The notes beneath the pieces are model-generated. The model did no database searches, was not told the DNA's origin, and worked only from the letters and a program-made list of their open reading frames with translations. Below are positions 3,689 through 12,729 of a stretch of 13,159 nucleotides of DNA, piece by piece. Source of the DNA: Candidatus Poseidoniaceae archaeon. Its GTDB lineage: Archaea; Thermoplasmatota; Poseidoniia; Poseidoniales; Poseidoniaceae. Both the position numbers and the translations under genes were made by a program. Position 1 is the first letter of the stretch. The number at the start of each line of letters is the position of its first letter. Location of the stretch: assembly GCA_949373265.1 (NCBI GenBank), contig CASICT010000003.1:1-13159 (forward strand). The letters run 5' to 3'.

Positions 3689-4954
3689 TCACTGAACCGA
3701 CATGAAACCAGAGCGGTCATAGCCCCATGGAATTGTTGCATCAATACCAATTTTAGCAGTTTTTCCATCCGACAAACGAGATGGGTCCAAACTAGAACCC
3801 TTCTGATTTGACAAAATTACCGAGTCTGAATCAGGTTGCCATCGAGTCATCATTGCCCATTCAACCCTAACGGGGTCGGTAATGTCGATGTCTTCATCAA
3901 CAATAGTTACCATCTTCATTGAACGGTGACCTGCTAAAGCAGCATGAATTGCTTTCAAAGCATCACCTTCATTGTTGACTTTGATTTTTACAACTGCTGC
4001 AAGCCAACCGCCTCCACCTTCGGTCATATGAACATCCAAGCATTCACAAACCTCGCTAACTGCTGACTTGATGGTTGGAGATCTTGGCAAGCCCATCAGT
4101 GTCTTGTGTTCAGCCTCTGCAGGAATTAAGGCGTGGAACACTGGATTCTTTCGATGGGTGATACCATCTATTTCAATCACGGGTTCTTGACGTACATCAT
4201 CGACTGTACCAGTAATGTCAACATAAGGACCCTCAGAGTCATTATCAGTTGTTATACGGCCCCACATTGCGTATTCAGCATGTGCTGGGACTTGTATCCC
4301 ATTAGGCAATTCAACTAATTCAAGAGGTGAACCATGTATTTTTTCGTGAAGTGCTGAGGCAATAGTCAATTCGTCAATATTTGAATCAAAGGACATTGCT
4401 CCTGCCAAAAGTACGACTGGGTCAGGTGCATTTATCACCGCTATTTTCACATCTTCCCCTGAACCCCTTGCATCACTGGTCATAGCATGAAGATGTCTCG
4501 GAACTAGTCTTACCACCAAGTGATTTTCATCACGTAGTAATTGTCGATGGAATGACATATTGCGGATTCCACCATGCTCTGCAATTATTACACTTGAAGA
4601 CATGTACCTTCCACGATCTTCTCGCCAATGATGAGGAATTGGCAATTTTGTCAAATCTGGAGTGCTTTGAGGACATTCCATGACTGGGCCTGAATCAACA
4701 ATTTTTGGGTCTCTGGGGTTTTCCATGGCCCATCCCAATAGGTCAATGAAATCCTCCGGCTCAATAGATAAGGCTGCACAAAGTCTAGGCCTTGTTAAGA
4801 GATTTACAGCAACTCTGTGACCTGGAGCCTCAATTAAATTTTCAAAGACAAGTAGTTCGTGACCTGTAGACTTAGACTTATCAAAAATACCATGCAGCAC
4901 GCTGGTTGGCTCAGTAATAAAAGTTGCTGCGCCTAACAAATCACGGAATGCCAT
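3689..4954 (-). CDS. UbiD-family decarboxylase (candidate anhydromevalonate phosphate decarboxylase)
   Basis: UbiD enzymes are (de)carboxylases that use prenylated FMN made by UbiX. Read from ATG 4954 the protein has 421 residues, a usual archaeal length. The N-terminus MAFRDLLG fits the family's 'MsfR-fL' opening. The prFMN/metal core is visible as GRYMSSSVI then RNMSFHR (N132 and R137, spaced as metal-ligand Asn and catalytic Arg), H154 or H156, VELP (E215), VPAHAEYAMWG (E227), EGPYVDITG (E241), and the late VDEDID...V.WA...R segment at about 352-371. The second Glu of the usual AExxxEG signature is W231. In archaea one UbiD clade decarboxylates anhydromevalonate 5-phosphate to isopentenyl phosphate. 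The nearby isopentenyl phosphate kinase makes that role attractive, but UbiD substrates vary widely. An alternative GTG start at 4993 lacks an SD, while AGGAAGG precedes ATG 4954. Confidence 0.87.
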   Translation of the reverse strand: MAFRDLLGAATFITEPTSVLHGIFDKSKSTGHELLVFENLIEAPGHRVAVNLLTRPRLCAALSIEPEDFIDLLGWAMENPRDPKIVDSGPVMECPQSTPDLTKLPIPHHWREDRGRYMSSSVIIAEHGGIRNMSFHRQLLRDENHLVVRLVPRHLHAMTSDARGSGEDVKIAVINAPDPVVLLAGAMSFDSNIDELTIASALHEKIHGSPLELVELPNGIQVPAHAEYAMWGRITTDNDSEGPYVDITGTVDDVRQEPVIEIDGITHRKNPVFHALIPAEAEHKTLMGLPRSPTIKSAVSEVCECLDVHMTEGGGGWLAAVVKIKVNNEGDALKAIHAALAGHRSMKMVTIVDEDIDITDPVRVEWAMMTRWQPDSDSVILSNQKGSSLDPSRLSDGKTAKIGIDATIPWGYDRSGFMSVQ

Positions 4955-5030
4955 GTACCCTTCCTGTAGGGCAATAACCATGAACATTGGCACTGTTCAG
5001 TTAACGATGCGTGCACCATCCGACCAACCC

Positions 5031-5054: not shown

Positions 5055-5095
5055 GGGAGGTAGGTCGGCAAAATGCTTCAATGGAGTGTTTTGAC

Positions 5096-5524
5096 ATGGG
5101 TCGTGGATTGTTCGCAGGAACCAAGATGGCAAAGGACCGCCAAAAGTTCAGATGGTCCGACCGTAGATACAAGAAGCGTATGCTCAAGTCTCGAGCTAAG
5201 CATGACCCTCTTGCAGGTTCAACACAAGCAAAGGGTATCGTTATCGAAAAAGTCGGTATCGAAGCTAAGCAGCCTAACTCCGGAATCCGTAAAGCAGTCA
5301 AGATTTCACTGATTAAGAACGGTAACAAACTTACAGCCTTCGCACCAGGAGATGGTGCTATCAACTTTATCGACGAACACGATGAAGTGATGGTAGAAGG
5401 AATCGGTGGACGTATGGGACGTTCATACGGAGATATTCCTGGTGTCCGATACAAGGTCATCCAAGTCAACGGTGTCTCATTAGATGAGATGGTTCGTGGA
5501 CGAAAAGAGAAGCCAGTACGATGA
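5096..5524 (+). CDS. rps12: Small-subunit ribosomal protein uS12
   Basis: uS12 sits at the decoding centre of the small ribosomal subunit and monitors codon-anticodon pairing. The 142 residues match archaeal S12 along their whole length: [10 protein letters not shown] at the start, [15 protein letters not shown], the decoding loop KQPNSGIRK at about 58-66, [15 protein letters not shown] at about 84-98, GDIPGVRYK at about 112-120 and the C-terminal GRKEKPVR. The start chosen is ATG 5096, because MGrGLFA is the family N-terminus and GGAGTG at 5083-5088 precedes it. An in-frame ATG at 5081 would add five unexpected residues. It leads the str-type cluster uS12-uS7-(desaturase)-EF-2 and lies 15 bases before uS7. 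Confidence 0.97.
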
Positions 5525-5539
5525 TTCGGAGTGATTTAG

Positions 5540-6169
5540 ATGAGTGAAGAAGTCGAAACACAAGAAGAAGAATCTCAACCTGAGGAAGTTAAGCCAATAG
5601 CAGGTATCGGAACACTGGTATTCAGTAAATACGATGCTAGCGAAGTAGTCTGTAGAGACCCTGGACTAGCACCTTACATCAACCTCTCAACTGTAGGAGT
5701 ACCACATACTGGTGGACGTCATGCAAATGCATGGTTCGGTAAAGCTCGCCTCTCTGTTGTCGAAAGATTCGTCAACAAGTTGATGCGAACTGGAAAGTAC
5801 ACAGGTAAGAAGCAAGGTGCACTCAAGGCTTTTGAAGCAGCACTCGATTCTATTGCAGAACGTAGTGGAAACAATCCTCTACAAGCATTCGTAGATGCAA
5901 TTTGTCATGCTGCACCAATGGAAGAGATCACACGTATCAAATTCGGTGCTGTATCTCAACCTAAGGCTGTTGACAGTTCACCATCCCGCAGACTCGATGT
6001 TGCACTAGCAAATCTTGCAAAGGGTGCACAACAAGGAACATCAAAATCAAAGCGTACACTTACTCAGTGTATTATCAACGAACTAACAAAGGCTAGCAAC
6101 GGTGATGTTACCTCTTTCGCAGTCTCAAAGAAGGAAGAAGTTCAGCGCATTGCATCAAGTGCACGCTGA
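5540..6169 (+). CDS. rps7: Small-subunit ribosomal protein uS7
   Basis: uS7 nucleates assembly of the head of the small subunit, binding the 3' major domain of 16S rRNA and contacting E-site tRNA. The 209-residue product is archaeal in type. An acidic extension (about 1-18, glutamate-rich) precedes the conserved core starting near KPIAGIGTLVFSKYDASEV. Recognisable blocks are VERFVNKLMRTGKYTGKK, AFVDAICHAAPMEEITRIKFG and SSPSRRLDVALANLAKGAQ, with a C-terminal helix KKEEVQRIASSAR. ATG 5540 follows GGAGTGAT at 5528-5535, which pairs with the 16S 3' end apart from one missing G. The gap to uS12 is only 15 bases, so the two share a transcript. Two tandem hairpins follow the stop. Confidence 0.97.
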   Translation: MSEEVETQEEESQPEEVKPIAGIGTLVFSKYDASEVVCRDPGLAPYINLSTVGVPHTGGRHANAWFGKARLSVVERFVNKLMRTGKYTGKKQGALKAFEAALDSIAERSGNNPLQAFVDAICHAAPMEEITRIKFGAVSQPKAVDSSPSRRLDVALANLAKGAQQGTSKSKRTLTQCIINELTKASNGDVTSFAVSKKEEVQRIASSAR

Positions 6170-6187
6170 GATTAGACCCACAGAAAC

Positions 6188-6220
6188 GGTGTTGCTTGCA
6201 ACACCTGACCCCAACGGTCA
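6188..6220 (+). promoter_or_regulatory. Two tandem hairpins between uS7 and desaturase genes
   Basis: Beginning 18 bases after the uS7 stop, GGTGTTG-CTTG-CAACACC (6188-6205) forms a perfect 7-bp stem with a 4-base loop. It is followed directly by TGACC-CCAAC-GGTCA (6206-6220), a perfect 5-bp stem with a 5-base loop. The two stems could stack coaxially. No T-run follows, so this is not a typical T-rich archaeal terminator. It may instead protect the 3' end of the ribosomal mRNA, mark a processing site, or control translation of the desaturase, whose start lies 26 bases downstream. The pairing is seen directly; the role is inference. Confidence 0.42.
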
Positions 6221-6246
6221 ATAATGACAGTCTTTGCGAAGGGGCT

Positions 6247-7389
6247 ATGAGCGAGTATAGTCCATCCACTAAAATCAACTGGCTCAACTCTATTTTCCTT
6301 TTGGCAACACCTCTTGTTGCGGTTGCTGGAGTCATTTACCATTGGAACTATTTTGGAAGTCCAGGTCTTGTTGAATTCATTGTATTCTTTTTCATGTACT
6401 TTGGTTGTGGACTTTCAATAACTGTTGGTTATCACCGGTTATTTTCCCATAGGTCACACGATGCCTCGTGGCCGATGGTTTTGTTTTACGCAATATTTGG
6501 TGCTGGTTCATTTCAAAACTCGATAATCGAGTGGTGTTCTGACCATCGTAAACACCACAAAGGCACAGATACTGAAGAAGACCCGTACTCTGTAACCAGA
6601 GGTTTTTGGTATTCCCACATGATTTGGGTCATGATCGAAGAAGAGAAGTTTGCAAATGATTTCGCTAATGTAAAAGACTTACAGGCAAGTAAAATCATTC
6701 GCTGGCAACACAGGAATATATTCTTGATTGGAGCACTATCGGGCTTAGCACTACCAATGGCAGTAGGTTTCATGTTCGGAGGAATTGCTACAGCGATTGG
6801 GTGCTTAGTTTGGGGCGGATTAGTTAGACTAGTATTTGTTCACCATGGTACATTCCTAATCAATAGTGCAGCTCACATATGGGGAGTTCAACCTTACTCT
6901 GAAGAAAACTCGAGCCGTGATTCATTTTGGTTAGCGTTCTTCACATTTGGTGAAGGATACCACAACTTCCATCATACTTTCCAAGCAGACTATCGCAATG
7001 GTCACAAATGGTATCATGTGGACCCTAGCAAATGGTGGATTAAGGTATTCCATCTAGTTGGATTGAAATCTAATCTGAAAAAGACACCAAAACATTCTAT
7101 TGAGATTGCCAAACTCGACATGAAGTTCAAAACTACATCATCTAAACTAGCATCGAAAAATATCGATACTACAGATTATGAAAATAAAATCAGCACCTAC
7201 AGAGATTCAATGAAGTCTTGCTTATACGAAATTCAGAAGGCAAAGAAAGAATTGAAGAAAACTCTGAGTAATCAGAGAATGGTTCTGCGTGAGAAAATTT
7301 CTGAAATGCAGACATCATACACTCAAATCAAACAAGATTTGAAAATATTATTCAATGAAATGAACGCTCAATATGTAGCGAATTCTTAA
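6247..7389 (+). CDS. Membrane fatty-acid (acyl-CoA delta-9 type) desaturase with helical C-terminal tail
   Basis: Membrane desaturases put a cis double bond into acyl chains using a di-iron centre, O2 and electrons from a cytochrome b5- or ferredoxin-type donor. The 380-residue product has all three histidine boxes: H63-RLFS-H68, H100-RK-HH (103-104) and H239-NF-HH (242-243), plus H210 in LINSAAH. Hydrophobic spans lie at about 13-33, 40-60, 77-95, 157-177 and 180-200. After about residue 280 comes a roughly 100-residue, lysine- and glutamate-rich helical tail (for example SCLYEIQKAKKELKK) that ordinary desaturases lack. ATG 6247 follows GAAGGGG. A TTG at 6196 in frame falls inside a hairpin and is less likely. 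The gene sits between uS7 and EF-2. The enzyme is rare in archaea, and transfer from bacteria is likely. Confidence 0.9.
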   Translation: MSEYSPSTKINWLNSIFLLATPLVAVAGVIYHWNYFGSPGLVEFIVFFFMYFGCGLSITVGYHRLFSHRSHDASWPMVLFYAIFGAGSFQNSIIEWCSDHRKHHKGTDTEEDPYSVTRGFWYSHMIWVMIEEEKFANDFANVKDLQASKIIRWQHRNIFLIGALSGLALPMAVGFMFGGIATAIGCLVWGGLVRLVFVHHGTFLINSAAHIWGVQPYSEENSSRDSFWLAFFTFGEGYHNFHHTFQADYRNGHKWYHVDPSKWWIKVFHLVGLKSNLKKTPKHSIEIAKLDMKFKTTSSKLASKNIDTTDYENKISTYRDSMKSCLYEIQKAKKELKKTLSNQRMVLREKISEMQTSYTQIKQDLKILFNEMNAQYVANS

Positions 7390-7493
7390 GTTGATTAATC
7401 AGCGTACTGTACGACGTTTGTCACCGACATTCGTAGTCGATTTGATAAACCCCTTCAAGGTGGCGAGGAATGACGAGAGTCAGGTGATTCACC
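7390..7493 (+). promoter_or_regulatory. EF-2 leader with short palindromes, possible TATA element and SD hairpin
   Basis: This 104-base gap precedes EF-2. It contains TGATTAATCA (7392-7401, perfect palindrome), CGTACTGTACG (7403-7413, 5-bp arms around one base) and GGTGATTCACC (7483-7493, 5-bp arms around one base), the last ending directly at the ATG. That last element includes the SD AGGTGAT (7482-7488) and could fold as GGTG-ATT-CACC, hiding the SD. TTTGATAAA (7441-7449) is a plausible TATA box, implying that EF-2 has its own promoter. The palindromes are plain in the sequence; promoter and control roles are inferred. Confidence 0.33.
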
Positions 7494-9701
7494 ATGGGCC
7501 GTAAAGAAGACAACATCAAGAAAGCAACTGAAGTAATGCACATCCTACCTCAGATTCGTAACCTATGTATCGCGGCTCACATTGACCACGGTAAGACAAC
7601 TCTTTCAGACAACCTAATTGCGGGTGCTGGAATGATGAGTGAAGAACTAGCAGGTAAGAGCCGTGTTCTTGACTTCGATGAACAAGAGAGTGCGAGAGGA
7701 ATCACAATTAACGCTGCTTCAGCATCAATGGTTCACGCTGTAAATGATACTGATTATCTAATCAATCTAATCGACACACCAGGTCACGTTGACTTCGGTG
7801 GAGACGTTACCCGTGCTATGCGTGCTGTAGATGGATGTTTCATCTTGGCATGTGCGGTTGAAGGACCAATGCCTCAGACTGAGACTGTTGTTCGTCAAGC
7901 ACTGAAAGAGAAGGTTAAGCCCGTACTTTTCATCAATAAAGTAGACCGCTTGATCAATGAGCTCAAAGTTACTCCTGAAGATATGTTAAAGAGATTTGAA
8001 GAGACTATCAAGAAAGTAAACAAACTAATTCAATCATTCGCACCTGAAGGTATGGAGAAGAAATGGCAAGTCAGTGTCATGGATGGTACTGTAGCATTTG
8101 GCTCAGCATACCACAACTGGGGTATCACAATCCCTTACATGAAGAAGTCTGGTGTTTCCATGACTGAGATTTTCGAATACTGTAATAATGAGGATCAGAA
8201 GACATTGGCGCAAAAAGCTCCAGTGCATGAAGTTCTTTTGGATATGGCTGTTTCCAAGTTGCCCGGACCTGTTGAAGCACAGCAATACAGAATTCCTAAC
8301 ATCTGGAACGGCGACCTTGATTCTCCAATTGGAAAGGCTATGATGACTTGTGACCCAAATGCAGAACTTGCAATGATGATTACCAAAATCTGGATGGACC
8401 CACACGCTGGAGAAGTCGCTGTTGGACGCCTGTATTCTGGTTCAATCAACCAAGGCGAGTCAGTATACGCAATCGGTGCTGCAAAGCCAGAGCGTGTTCA
8501 GCAAGTCAGCATGATGGTTGGAGGAGACAGAATCCCAGTCCCAACTGTAGTAGCAGGTAACATCGCAGCAATTACTGGAATCCGTTCCGCTGCTGCTGGT
8601 GTAACACTATCACGTGACAAGGACTTCACTCCTTTCGAAGCGATCAGGCACTATTCTGACCCGGTTGTTACAGTAGCAGTAGAACCGAAGAGTATGAAGG
8701 ACCTACCAAAGTTCATCGATGCTCTACGTTCACTTGCAAAGTCCGATGCATCCCTTCAAGTTAGCACAAACCAGGAAACAGGAGAAGCACTTCTTGCTGG
8801 TATGGGAGAACTTCACTTGGAAATTACAGTTTACCGCCTAGAAGAAGAACAGAATATCAAGGTAAAAGTAAGCCCTCCAATCGTTGTATACAGAGAATCT
8901 GTTGAGGGAACAAACAGAGGACATTCATTCGAAGGTAAGTCACCAAACCGACACAACAGATTCATGATGGAATGTGAAGCACTTTCTCCTGAAGTAGTTG
9001 CTGCTCTACGTGATGGCCACTTTGGAAATGGGGCTGTTCGCTCTGGAGATGCCAAAGCAGTCGGAGCAAAATTCGGTGAACTCGGTATGGACAAGGACAA
9101 AATGCGCAAGATTTACGCAATCTACGGTACAAACGTACTAGTCAATGACACAAAGGGTATTCAGGGACTTCACGAAACTCGTGAACTGATAATCGAAGCA
9201 TTCAATGAAGTTTGCAAGAAGGGACCAGTTGCTGATGAACCTGTAATGGGAATGATGGTTCGCCTTGTTGATGCAAAGTTGCACGAAGATGCAATCCACC
9301 GTGGACCTGCTCAGACTATCCCAGCTGTACGTAATGGAATCAAAGGCGCTATGATGCGCTCACGCACTGTTCTGATGGAGCCTATGCAGAGATCACACGT
9401 CAGTGTACCAAACGACTGGCTTGGACCGGTAACTCGTGAAATCACAAACCGTCGTGGAATTATCGAAGATATGCCGTCTGAAGGTGAAGCTACAACCGTA
9501 ATAGGAACTCTTCCAGTTGCAGAAACATTTGGTTTCTCAAACGATATTCGTGCGGCTTCACAAGGTCGTGCTGTATGGAACTCCGAAAATATTGGGTTTG
9601 AAATTCTTCCACCTCAATTATTCACCAAAGTAGTCGGCGATATCCGTTCCCGTAAGGGATTGAAGCCTGACCCTAACCCTGAGTCCTATTACGCTGAGTG
9701 A
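7494..9701 (+). CDS. fusA: Translation elongation factor 2 (EF-2)
   Basis: EF-2 is the GTPase that drives translocation of tRNA and mRNA on the ribosome. The 735 residues equal the usual archaeal length. GTPase motifs are AHIDHGKT (28-35), RGIT (68-71, switch I), DTPGH (94-98) and NKVD (148-151). The domain IV tip HRGPAQTIPAVR carries H602, the histidine normally converted to diphthamide. The C-terminus GLKPDPNP with a short acidic end is also typical of archaea. ATG 7494 has the SD AGGTGAT five bases upstream. In most archaea EF-2 directly follows uS7, or is close to it. Here the desaturase gene and two structured gaps separate them, so EF-2 may be transcribed independently. EF-1A and uS10, its common companions, do not follow. 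Confidence 0.98.
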   Translation: MGRKEDNIKKATEVMHILPQIRNLCIAAHIDHGKTTLSDNLIAGAGMMSEELAGKSRVLDFDEQESARGITINAASASMVHAVNDTDYLINLIDTPGHVDFGGDVTRAMRAVDGCFILACAVEGPMPQTETVVRQALKEKVKPVLFINKVDRLINELKVTPEDMLKRFEETIKKVNKLIQSFAPEGMEKKWQVSVMDGTVAFGSAYHNWGITIPYMKKSGVSMTEIFEYCNNEDQKTLAQKAPVHEVLLDMAVSKLPGPVEAQQYRIPNIWNGDLDSPIGKAMMTCDPNAELAMMITKIWMDPHAGEVAVGRLYSGSINQGESVYAIGAAKPERVQQVSMMVGGDRIPVPTVVAGNIAAITGIRSAAAGVTLSRDKDFTPFEAIRHYSDPVVTVAVEPKSMKDLPKFIDALRSLAKSDASLQVSTNQETGEALLAGMGELHLEITVYRLEEEQNIKVKVSPPIVVYRESVEGTNRGHSFEGKSPNRHNRFMMECEALSPEVVAALRDGHFGNGAVRSGDAKAVGAKFGELGMDKDKMRKIYAIYGTNVLVNDTKGIQGLHETRELIIEAFNEVCKKGPVADEPVMGMMVRLVDAKLHEDAIHRGPAQTIPAVRNGIKGAMMRSRTVLMEPMQRSHVSVPNDWLGPVTREITNRRGIIEDMPSEGEATTVIGTLPVAETFGFSNDIRAASQGRAVWNSENIGFEILPPQLFTKVVGDIRSRKGLKPDPNPESYYAE

Positions 9702-9758: not shown

Positions 9759-10190
9759 ATGGGCGACGTTTTGGGAATCTTCATCTCTAAGGGTGGAGTG
9801 CCTAAATTACCGATTAATTCGGTTCACATAGGACAACTGGGTCTTGCTGGTGATGTTCAAACAGATAAGAAATACCACGGTGGATATTTGAGAGCAGTTT
9901 GTGTTTTAGAAAATGAATTATTACTCAAATTACAAAGTGAAGGCCATCCGATTCTACCTGGTGAAACTGGAGAGAACCTATTGTTAGAAGGATACGACCT
10001 TACAATTGGGTCTATCTTTTCGGTTGGAGATGTTGAGTTGGAAGTTATTTCTGCAGCAACACCATGCCACAAAATTGCAAGTTCGTTCAATCAAGGAGAT
10101 TTTAATCGCATGTCTCACAAAACAACTCCTGGAGATACACGCTGGTATTGTAAAGTACTCAAAGAAGGAAACGTCAGAATATCCTCTTAA
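9759..10190 (+). CDS. Stand-alone MOSC-domain protein
   Basis: MOSC domains, also found at the C-terminus of molybdenum-cofactor sulfurases and in YiiM/mARC enzymes, carry sulfur on a conserved cysteine or act on N-hydroxylated substrates through bound cofactor. This 143-residue protein is essentially one MOSC domain: ISKGGVPKLP at the start, LGLAGDVQTDKKYHGG (H40), PGETGENLLLEG (about 67-78), IGSIFSVGDVELEV and the signature PCHK with C103. Short stand-alone MOSC proteins are widespread and their substrates are mostly unknown. ATG 9759 fits the family N-terminus, although no good SD is visible. The 57 bases after EF-2 show no clear signal, so read-through from EF-2 is possible. Its 3' end overlaps the convergent isomerase-synthase gene by 17 bases. 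No molybdopterin genes are nearby. Confidence 0.88.
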   Translation: MGDVLGIFISKGGVPKLPINSVHIGQLGLAGDVQTDKKYHGGYLRAVCVLENELLLKLQSEGHPILPGETGENLLLEGYDLTIGSIFSVGDVELEVISAATPCHKIASSFNQGDFNRMSHKTTPGDTRWYCKVLKEGNVRISS

Positions 10191-11904
10191 GTTGGTAGTC
10201 AGTCAATTCACGTAGAGCAACCATTGCAGGACTATCGGGTAACCTGTCTAGACAATCGTGAGCACTCCTGTGGTAAAATTCTGCTCTAGAACGTGCATAA
10301 TCGATAGAACCTAGATCTTCAAGCGCTTTGTGCGCTTTTGCAACTTGCTCTGAAGTAACATCATCGCCCTTACCCAATACTGCGAGTAAATCTTCCTTTG
10401 AATTAGAAGGAGGTTGGTCTAGAGCATGTATTACCATCAAAGTACGCTTACCTTGAGCAACGTCACTTCCACTAGGCTTACCAAGAGTATCAGAATCGGA
10501 TAGAACATCGATTAAGTCATCCATTAATTGGAAACATAGACCTAATGCTAATCCCCAATCATGCATGCATTCAATGGTTTGTGTATCTGCCCCGGCAAGG
10601 TGGGAGCCAACCTCAGCGCATGTAAGGAACATTGCTGCAGTCTTTCCATGAATCATAGTAATGTATTCTTCTTCAGAAACCCTTTCACGGTCTTCAAATT
10701 CAATATCCAATTGTTGACCTTCGCTGCACTTACGCACCATGCGCCCAATTCTCTTTACTAAGAACGGCAACAATTCAGGTTCAATCCCTTCAGCCACAGC
10801 CATCGCTTCAAACGCAATAGCTAACATCGCATCACCCGCATTGATAGCAGTTGGTAAGTCATAGGCCACATGCACAGCAGGCCTACCTCTACGAACGTCA
10901 TCATCGTCCATAATGTCATCATGAACCAATGTGAAATTATGAATTATTTCAATCGCAGCCCCGACATCGAGTAAACCTGAGTGAGAATCTCCAACTGCCT
11001 TGGCAACAAGCCAAGGAAGTGTTGCTCTAAGTCGCTTACCTCCACCTTCTATCAAATGCATCATGGCACCAGATAAGCGGTCTAAAGATGAATGTGTTAG
11101 GGCTCTTTCAATCCTGATTTCGACCAATTCCTTAACTTCAGCAATGCTAGTCATTAGGTCGGCACCAATTGCATTGGGAAGCATATGAGATACATCACCC
11201 ATGTCATGAATCAAATCATCAGGTTTTGCACAGCCTGGACGCCACCAATCATCATCCATTAATCTAGCAGCAATACACCTAAACCATGGTGCAATGATAT
11301 TATCTGGGTCTTCAGCAATCAATAACTCCTCAAGTTCGGATTGACTTACCCATTTAATTTCACTAACTTCATTTGGATTTGGATTGACATCAACATCTGC
11401 ATGTATAACCAAGCAATGGTCGATTTCTCTTTCAATCCAGTTTTGGTCTTGACGTGCTTGATAGCGCATTTTTGTGACAAAATCAAATTTGTCGATTGAG
11501 ACTTGAGATGGAGAGATTCCTAATTCCTGTTCCAACTTTCTTATGGCTGCTCTTTTCACTCCTAAATTATTCTTTAAGTCCATTTCATCTTCACTATGTA
11601 AAGGATGTGAGCAACAGGAATTAGCCCAAACATCAGGGAATGTAATCTTGTGCGATGCTCTTTTTTGTAGGAGTAGTCTACCTGACGAATCGAACAGAAG
11701 TACGCTAAATGCTCTGTGTATTGACCCGATTCCATTGTGGCTATCGAACTTAGAGATAGGACCTATTACTTCATCCAATTCATTTACTTGAATGACTGCT
11801 TCACTCATCAGAGACTCCTGTACTGAATCACTGTCTTGTAATGCTACAGATGTATCTGCATGCAATTTGATATTGGGAACATCCTCAATGGCATATCCCG
11901 ACAT
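10174..11904 (-). CDS. Fusion: type-1 IPP isomerase (Nudix) + GGPP-type polyprenyl synthase
   Basis: One uninterrupted frame of 576 residues joins two consecutive isoprenoid enzymes. Residues about 35-215 are a type-1 isopentenyl diphosphate isomerase. The metal ligands and catalytic residues known from the E. coli enzyme align at the same spacing as H56, H63, H100, E158 and E160, with catalytic C98 in NSCCSHPL. Residues about 245-576 are a trans-prenyl synthase with GGGKRLR (287-293), first aspartate motif DDIMDDDD (329-336), GKT (420-422) and second motif DDLID (462-466). F324, five residues before the first motif, and T325 fit an archaeal GGPP (C20) synthase. A 30-residue linker, with WW at 220-221 and PDD at 228-230, joins them. 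The start is ATG 11904 after GGAG with a 6-base spacer. A second ATG at 11808 with its own AGGAGT would drop a 32-residue extension. It lies 36 bases after the IPK gene. Confidence 0.93.
   Translation of the reverse strand: MSGYAIEDVPNIKLHADTSVALQDSDSVQESLMSEAVIQVNELDEVIGPISKFDSHNGIGSIHRAFSVLLFDSSGRLLLQKRASHKITFPDVWANSCCSHPLHSEDEMDLKNNLGVKRAAIRKLEQELGISPSQVSIDKFDFVTKMRYQARQDQNWIEREIDHCLVIHADVDVNPNPNEVSEIKWVSQSELEELLIAEDPDNIIAPWFRCIAARLMDDDWWRPGCAKPDDLIHDMGDVSHMLPNAIGADLMTSIAEVKELVEIRIERALTHSSLDRLSGAMMHLIEGGGKRLRATLPWLVAKAVGDSHSGLLDVGAAIEIIHNFTLVHDDIMDDDDVRRGRPAVHVAYDLPTAINAGDAMLAIAFEAMAVAEGIEPELLPFLVKRIGRMVRKCSEGQQLDIEFEDRERVSEEEYITMIHGKTAAMFLTCAEVGSHLAGADTQTIECMHDWGLALGLCFQLMDDLIDVLSDSDTLGKPSGSDVAQGKRTLMVIHALDQPPSNSKEDLLAVLGKGDDVTSEQVAKAHKALEDLGSIDYARSRAEFYHRSAHDCLDRLPDSPAMVALRELTDYQLKRIF
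11806..11819 (-). promoter_or_regulatory. Internal SD and start codon within the isomerase-synthase gene
   Basis: On the minus strand AGGAGT (11819-11814) is followed after 5 bases by an in-frame ATG (11808-11806) that begins MSEAVIQVNELDEVIG, where the conserved isomerase fold starts. The upstream ATG at 11904 also has a good SD. Either the first 32 residues are a real N-terminal extension, or the true start is here and the upstream frame is leader, or both are used. The sequence alone does not decide. Confidence 0.4.
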
Positions 11905-11940
11905 AACTCTCTCCAAATAGTGGGTTTCGCGTCCACTACA

Positions 11941-12729
11941 TCAAGAGTTCCCTGTAACTATACGTGTCCCAAGTACTGACTTGCCTTCAATTGCATCAAG
12001 AACACGCTCTGGATACTCTCCATTGATTATCATGACATCAACTCCTTTTTGCGAAATCATAGCGCCTCTTGCAGCCTTTAGACCAATTCCTCCTGTAACA
12101 TCAATCTCAGAAGCATGTTCACCTATGAACTTCATTTCCGGATGCCATACTTCGATTAAATCATCAGGTCCAGCATTTGAAGGTGGTACCTTCAAGATTC
12201 CATCAACTCCTCCAATAGCAAATACAGCCCTATCGACATTAGGTAACTCTGTTGCATATCGAAGCATAATGTCATCACCAGATAGGATACCAAATTCATT
12301 TTCATCGTCGCCAACAACATCTCCAAACAACACGGTTACACCATCAAACATTGGAAGTTCACCTTTGAAACCAGGTCCAGTACCCCTAGCCCATTCACGA
12401 GGAGGGAACGTTTTTGTTACAAGCCCATACTTGTTGAGGGATTTAATTACGTAACTGTTTAACTCCAGCATATCTGAACGAACTTCTTCGATTGCAGCAT
12501 CCTGTGAAATACTATCAACACGCCCTTCAGATAGTCGGAATTCTTTAGCCTTCAAGTGACCAAATGAACCTGCACCATGAACGATTACAAGTTTTTTAGT
12601 TGAATTAGAACAGGCTTCTGCTAAGGCATCTATTACTTTGGAATTAACAGTACAAAGTTGGTCCTTGTGGGTGATTAAACCCCCTCCCCACTTGATGACT
12701 ACTATTCCGGACATGGTTATGCCAAGCAT
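11941..12729 (-). CDS. ipk: Isopentenyl phosphate kinase
   Basis: This enzyme of the amino-acid-kinase fold phosphorylates isopentenyl phosphate to isopentenyl diphosphate with ATP, the last kinase step of the modified archaeal mevalonate pathways. The 262 residues show an N-terminal VIKWGGGLIT (K13, GGG 15-17), the signature VHGAGSFGHLKAKEF with H58 at the position of the family's substrate-binding histidine, LSGDDIMLRYATELP, FAIGGVDG and the C-terminal DVTGGIGLKAARGA. Length and motif order are normal. The start may be ATG 12729 or ATG 12714 (MSGIVVIK). Neither has an SD, which suits a leaderless transcript for the first gene of an operon. The fused isomerase-GGPP synthase follows after 36 bases, so product and next enzyme are encoded together. 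A nearby UbiD protein could provide its substrate. Confidence 0.93.
   Translation of the reverse strand: MLGITMSGIVVIKWGGGLITHKDQLCTVNSKVIDALAEACSNSTKKLVIVHGAGSFGHLKAKEFRLSEGRVDSISQDAAIEEVRSDMLELNSYVIKSLNKYGLVTKTFPPREWARGTGPGFKGELPMFDGVTVLFGDVVGDDENEFGILSGDDIMLRYATELPNVDRAVFAIGGVDGILKVPPSNAGPDDLIEVWHPEMKFIGEHASEIDVTGGIGLKAARGAMISQKGVDVMIINGEYPERVLDAIEGKSVLGTRIVTGNS

Follow-up and report, generated by a model that had tools for sequence, protein, structure and literature searches.

Does an archaeal lineage carry two consecutive steps of its lipid synthesis on a single polypeptide, and if so, how did such an enzyme come about? The question is raised by a minus-strand frame in the window (the whole stretch of DNA analysed, 13,159 nucleotides from a Candidatus Poseidoniaceae archaeon), which a first-pass annotation had read as a type-1 IPP isomerase fused to a GGPP-type synthase, both with intact active sites. 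As argued below, the protein is very likely a conserved bifunctional enzyme leading from IPP to GGPP. There is also a high probability that the fuller claim holds in all its parts, namely, that the protein is such an enzyme, is the only isomerase found, and is derived from an overlapping isomerase-synthase gene pair.

Two complete enzymes in one frame

The frame is open throughout from 10174 to 11916 and encodes a protein identical in extent to the database record P0002 (Table 1). A complete type-1 IPP isomerase (IDI1) forms its N-terminal part and a complete archaeal GGPP-type synthase its C-terminal part, with no stop between them; the fusion proposed earlier is thus real, and the active-site residues of both halves proved invariant across the 42 aligned fusions. 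The N-terminal domain would convert IPP to DMAPP, and the C-terminal domain would add three IPP to this DMAPP, yielding GGPP.

Table 1. Coordinates of the fusion gene, its parts, and neighboring isoprenoid genes in the window
Feature	Position	Strand	Remarks
Fusion gene, ATG to stop	10174..11904	-	576 aa; start ATG at 11904
IDI1 domain	11200..11847	-	Residues 20-235 (approximate), C-terminal tail IHDMG included
Cys98, presumed catalytic	11611..11613	-	Invariant in 42/42 aligned fusions
Linker	11164..11199	-	Residues 236-247, about 12 residues; gap between the two structure-matched ranges
GGPP-type synthase domain	10177..11163	-	Residues 248-576 (approximate)
First Asp-rich motif, DDIMD	10906..10920	-	Residues 329-333; 42/42 fusions; Phe324 five residues ahead
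Second Asp-rich motif, DDLID	10507..10521	-	Residues 462-466; 42/42 fusions
Isopentenyl phosphate kinase (IPK)	11941..12729	-	NF040647, 159.9 bits (cut-off 120)
UbiD-family decarboxylase	3689..4993	-	TIGR00148, 300 bits; at the same locus in relatives

The isomerase half scores 152.6 bits against TIGR02150 (IDI1; curated cut-off 105.8), with the match covering residues 41-215 of the 580-residue reading of the frame, and structure comparison of the predicted model gives it the fold of human IDI1. C98, H56, H63, H100, E158, and E160 are invariant in all 42 aligned fusions, which come from both of the fused groups described below. By E. coli numbering, we take C98 to be the catalytic Cys (E. coli C67) and assign the His and Glu roles likewise, so that this half would be an IPP/DMAPP isomerase. 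It shares the complete fold and active-site residues with human IDI1 and the TIGR02150 family; however, in the solved relatives the type-1 isomerase is a stand-alone protein, whereas in these archaea it is the N-terminal half of a fusion.

The synthase half matches PF00348 at 219.3 bits against a cut-off of 27, and its Asp-rich motif residues, D329/D330/D333 and D462/D463/D466, are invariant in the aligned fusions. It adopts the archaeal GGPP synthase fold, with 35-38% identity to the enzymes of P. horikoshii (1wy0) and G. acetivorans (5jfq), which have the same two motifs but are stand-alone, unlike the synthase of the window with its preceding IDI1. An aromatic residue five positions before the first Asp-rich motif is a mark of archaeal C20 synthases and limits product length, and Phe324, at exactly this position, is again invariant (42/42). 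The scores against the exact families fall under their curated cut-offs (263 versus 500 for GGPP_syn, NF041003; 298 versus 468 for IdsA), so that product length is assigned by motif and fold, and membership in the GGPP_syn model is not claimed. Motif and fold together bear out the GGPP-type reading, with a predicted C20 product. A second, unfused prenyl synthase is present in all seven genomes looked at, though as fragments only in G555 and in broken form in G304. In the four copies read (L219, L220, L216, L180), Ala occupies the place of Phe324, which predicts a longer product for this second enzyme.

Continuity and spread of the fused frame

In the contig search, a single open frame spans both halves at all of the best 80 loci, and at least 120 related proteins, the window's own included, have both domains and a length of 544-581 aa. 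The first-pass annotation had named a stop or frameshift between the halves in independent assemblies as a finding that would count against the fusion; at none of these 80 loci is the frame interrupted. Over 48 junction codons from 19 genes, third positions are variable at a fraction of 0.88, versus 0.44 and 0.38 for the other two, junction dN lies at 0.06-0.21 in five comparisons, and dS exceeds 1 in the four for which it is computable. The junction evolves as coding sequence, which, together with the one-frame loci, indicates that the fusion is no accident of assembly. Of the 113 genomes in the phylum sample that belong to the two fused groups and have IDI1 above the cut-off, 104 have a frame of at least 500 aa. 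The coordinates of six of the nine shorter frames place them at contig ends (G163, G135, G120, G355, G320, G214), and the others are those of G340, with an N-gap, G347, with one stop (TAA), and G114. Broken records thus exist (also L103, with an N-gap, P0129, and P0144), and they are what could be said for an assembly or frameshift artefact; against the one-frame loci, the full-length frames, and the codon pattern of the junction, this explanation has a negligible probability, and we reject it because many independent assemblies carry the fusion in one frame over coding junction codons. We likewise rejected an internal start that would yield a separate synthase: Met241 is found in only 24 of the 42 aligned rows and Met251 in 7, leaving no conserved start. 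A scan of viral contigs, able to find close relatives only, returned no relative of the fusion.

The loci among these best 80 are named Poseidoniales, Poseidoniaceae, Poseidonia, or Euryarchaeota; the exception, L042, is a Poseidoniales-type fusion on a contig that is recorded as a Rhodobiaceae bacterium and was probably mis-binned.

The extent of the fusion, which the earlier annotation had left to be mapped over archaeal genomes, was followed across Thermoplasmatota. The class comprises 339 genomes: 21 of a second order (presumably Marine Group III), five Poseidoniales with the two genes unfused, and 313 in two fused groups, presumably Poseidoniaceae and Thalassarchaeaceae. One frame covers both halves in at least 140 of the 313. 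Among the matches listed, eight of the 313 have a partial place only, and 115 have a best E-value below 1e-110 without a listed place; such a value alone is no proof of fusion, as one half can pass 1e-110 in close relatives, and the copy in G340, broken by its N-gap, still reaches 2.2e-146. The remaining 50 fused-group genomes miss this threshold, and 14 of them were looked at. In five of the first eight inspected, EF-2 is absent too, so that these assemblies lack the entire locus; in G184 and G441 the end of the synthase survives at a contig end, and in G412 one contig breaks off inside EF-2. The six further genomes have partial or split copies. G412 also has a second contig (L223; G412:C52) with another EF-2 copy, beside which no isomerase or synthase was found. 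Rather than a local oddity, then, the fusion is the usual state in two large Poseidoniales groups, with an unfused adjacent pair in their relatives.

A probable path from overlapping genes to the fusion

In the second order, the isomerase and synthase genes are adjacent but unfused (eight loci read, from the 21 genomes), and no IPK or EF-2 was found beside the pair in the four longer stretches read. The five Poseidoniales genomes with an unfused pair (G300, G379, G404, G405, G406) have it at the usual locus; G300, G404, G405, and G406 are placed in Poseidoniales by their likeness to G379. At all 10 unfused loci checked, the synthase ATG overlaps the isomerase stop, at seven by ATGA and at three by 10 nt; this count takes the ATG nearest the isomerase stop, some frames offering other starts, and leaves out L103 with its N-gap. 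The ATGA form is found at both loci read from the five-genome group and at five of the eight second-order loci. The second-order isomerases end in HxMG plus 3-5 residues (8/8), and at the corresponding place the group of the window has IHDMG or nearly so. The second fused group retains this tail only in part, and it is absent from the two isomerases read from the unfused five. The overlap in the unfused loci and the tail motif at the junction together suggest that the fusion point marks the former stop/start. On this reading, an IDI1 gene and a synthase gene that lay side by side and overlapped would have been joined when the stop was lost and the frame shifted within the overlap, and the linker would combine the old isomerase tail with the old synthase start. 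The direction from pair to fusion is, on these sequence features, the most likely one.

How often this happened depends on the placement of the five unfused genomes, which differs between trees. Of the separate domain trees that the first-pass annotation had called for, the synthase tree groups the five with the second fused group (90/99), and the isomerase tree places them inside part of that group (97/86). Both thus put them near the second fused group, whereas a five-gene tree joins them with the first fused group plus three fused loci from the second (SH-aLRT 86), and an EF-2 tree leaves the three Poseidoniales groups without resolution. A position beside or inside the second fused group would follow from two separate fusion events, or from a single one that was later undone in the five-genome group. 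However, the ATGA overlap of the two loci read from this group equals that of the five second-order loci, and forcing all fused loci into one clade is not rejected (p-AU 0.18); we consider such a repeated or reversed history a real possibility, falling somewhat short of an even chance. A protein resembling those of the five-genome group, P0129, has an isomerase that runs into the synthase, then goes off frame and ends at 304 aa; it is either a separate fusion or a sequencing error.

Type, setting, and meaning of the fused isomerase

The isomerase half matches human IDI1 at 156 bits and the entries that we take to be bacterial at about 52. The best named non-archaeal match of the unfused isomerase, among the matches listed, is from Endozoicomonas, and the relatives of that protein include Poseidoniia and oomycetes. 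By these likenesses, the isomerase is a eukaryote-type enzyme in class members both with and without the fusion, and the earlier suggestion that this half was acquired is borne out as to its foreign type. Six other Thermoplasmatota genomes have an IDI1 that groups apart and at a distance, and this set served as the outgroup of the isomerase tree. Rooted in this way, with an unsafe root and few eukaryotes sampled, the tree has eukaryotic rows among those of Poseidoniia, while a Poseidoniia group of its own is not rejected (p-AU 0.34). That the marine archaea were the source of this isomerase stock and the eukaryotes, along with Endozoicomonas, its receivers, rather than the reverse, appears very improbable. 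The IDI1 of Haloarchaea and Thaumarchaeota has been ascribed to probable transfers from bacteria (Lombard et al., PMC3533463); in the parts of this account of archaeal IDI1 available to us, the Poseidoniia-type group is unmentioned.

Across 389 Thermoplasmatota genomes, IDI1 scores above its cut-off in 129 and the type-2 isomerase (IDI2) in 234, with 238 having a strong type-2 match (E-value below 1e-50). No genome combines IDI1 with a strong type-2 match, and 22 have neither, weak type-2 matches being counted as absence. Matches to IDI1 below the cut-off are the only ones in 12 genomes, nine of which have a strong type-2 enzyme; none was counted as IDI1. The two isomerases, which catalyze the same reaction but belong to different protein families, type 2 being a flavoenzyme unrelated to IDI1, are thus mutually exclusive in this phylum sample. 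In the class sample of 134 genomes, 123 have IDI1 above the cut-off, none a strong type-2 match, and 11 neither. Hence, the earlier remark that type-1 isomerases are uncommon in archaea does not extend to this class, in whose sampled genomes type 1 is the isomerase found; where the genes are fused, no isomerase other than the fusion was found, and it is most likely the only one of the cells.

The surrounding genes are consistent with such a role. The IPK gene lies 36 bp upstream of the fusion on the same strand and is its neighbor in related loci too; it would make IPP, the substrate of the fusion. The UbiD-family gene is a candidate anhydromevalonate phosphate decarboxylase, and AcnX was found in all 13 Poseidoniales genomes tried. 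Together, these three fit the archaeal mevalonate route. IPK, EF-2, S7, S12, and UbiD are common to many fused loci and to the five unfused Poseidoniales genomes. Among the best 80 loci, 55 have the full order IPK-fusion-MOSC-EF2-S7-S12-UbiD, and in the rest at least one of these genes is absent or two are swapped; the unfused five have the same order without MOSC. In the window, the isoprenoid genes (UbiD-type, IPK, and fusion) flank a translation block of S12, S7, and EF-2 on the plus strand (5081-9701). Between S7 and EF-2 lies a fatty acid desaturase-like gene (PF00487; 6196-7389, plus strand), present at that place in some Poseidoniales loci and missing in others, and odd for an archaeon with isoprenoid lipids.

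With both activities predicted from sequence, tethering would hold them at 1:1. Whether it does more is finely balanced: there is about an even chance that the fusion secures co-production only, the two enzymes sharing a chain but working independently, with free diffusion of DMAPP between them. Each domain closely matches stand-alone relatives, and relatives appear to run the same chemistry from two overlapping genes; on the other hand, a junction that is under selection and predicted to be ordered hints at a fixed arrangement, though it proves nothing. The predicted structure of the whole chain (pLDDT 90.6, pTM 0.88), with residue blocks 231-260 at pLDDT 91-94, likewise suggests a defined arrangement, and GGPP could act as the primer of the second synthase, in which case free DMAPP may be unneeded. 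Both points would suit a fusion that brings the active sites together and releases little free DMAPP, yet synthases of the PF00348-type family act as dimers, and we consider this reading rather unlikely. Substrate channelling by the fusion is accordingly offered here as a guess.

A natural fusion of an isomerase to a later isoprenoid enzyme is described for diatoms, in the form of IPP isomerase-squalene synthase (IDI-SQS; PMC6330534, PMC12175399). As far as the text of these sources was available, the likeness ends there: the diatom protein is eukaryotic and its partner does not catalyze the directly following step, whereas the archaeal partner is a prenyl diphosphate synthase. The window's protein is not itself an IDI-SQS, as its C-terminal domain is a PF00348 polyprenyl synthase rather than a squalene synthase. 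In the literature searched, to the extent that its text was available, fusions with squalene synthase are the natural isomerase fusions. A search of titles and abstract starts found no description of an isomerase-GGPP synthase fusion, and the available main text of PMC11052028 contains none of "fusion," "fused," or "Poseidon"; the first-pass annotation had allowed that the fusion might already be documented across archaea, and in the literature searched it is not. Among the matches listed, database names cover one half only ("isopentenyl-diphosphate delta-isomerase" or "geranylgeranyl diphosphate synthase type I") or read hypothetical. Although it stands in many sequence records, the architecture has, as far as the literature search shows, gone undescribed.

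If the proposed function is correct, widespread and abundant marine archaea would make GGPP, from which archaeal membranes are built, from IPP on a single natural polypeptide, and the passage from overlapping genes to the fusion would still be visible in their relatives. Such a protein could serve as a natural model for the enzyme fusions that engineers build by hand. It also raises testable questions, namely, whether tethering channels DMAPP and how a eukaryote-type isomerase came to fill the place of the flavoenzyme in this lineage.
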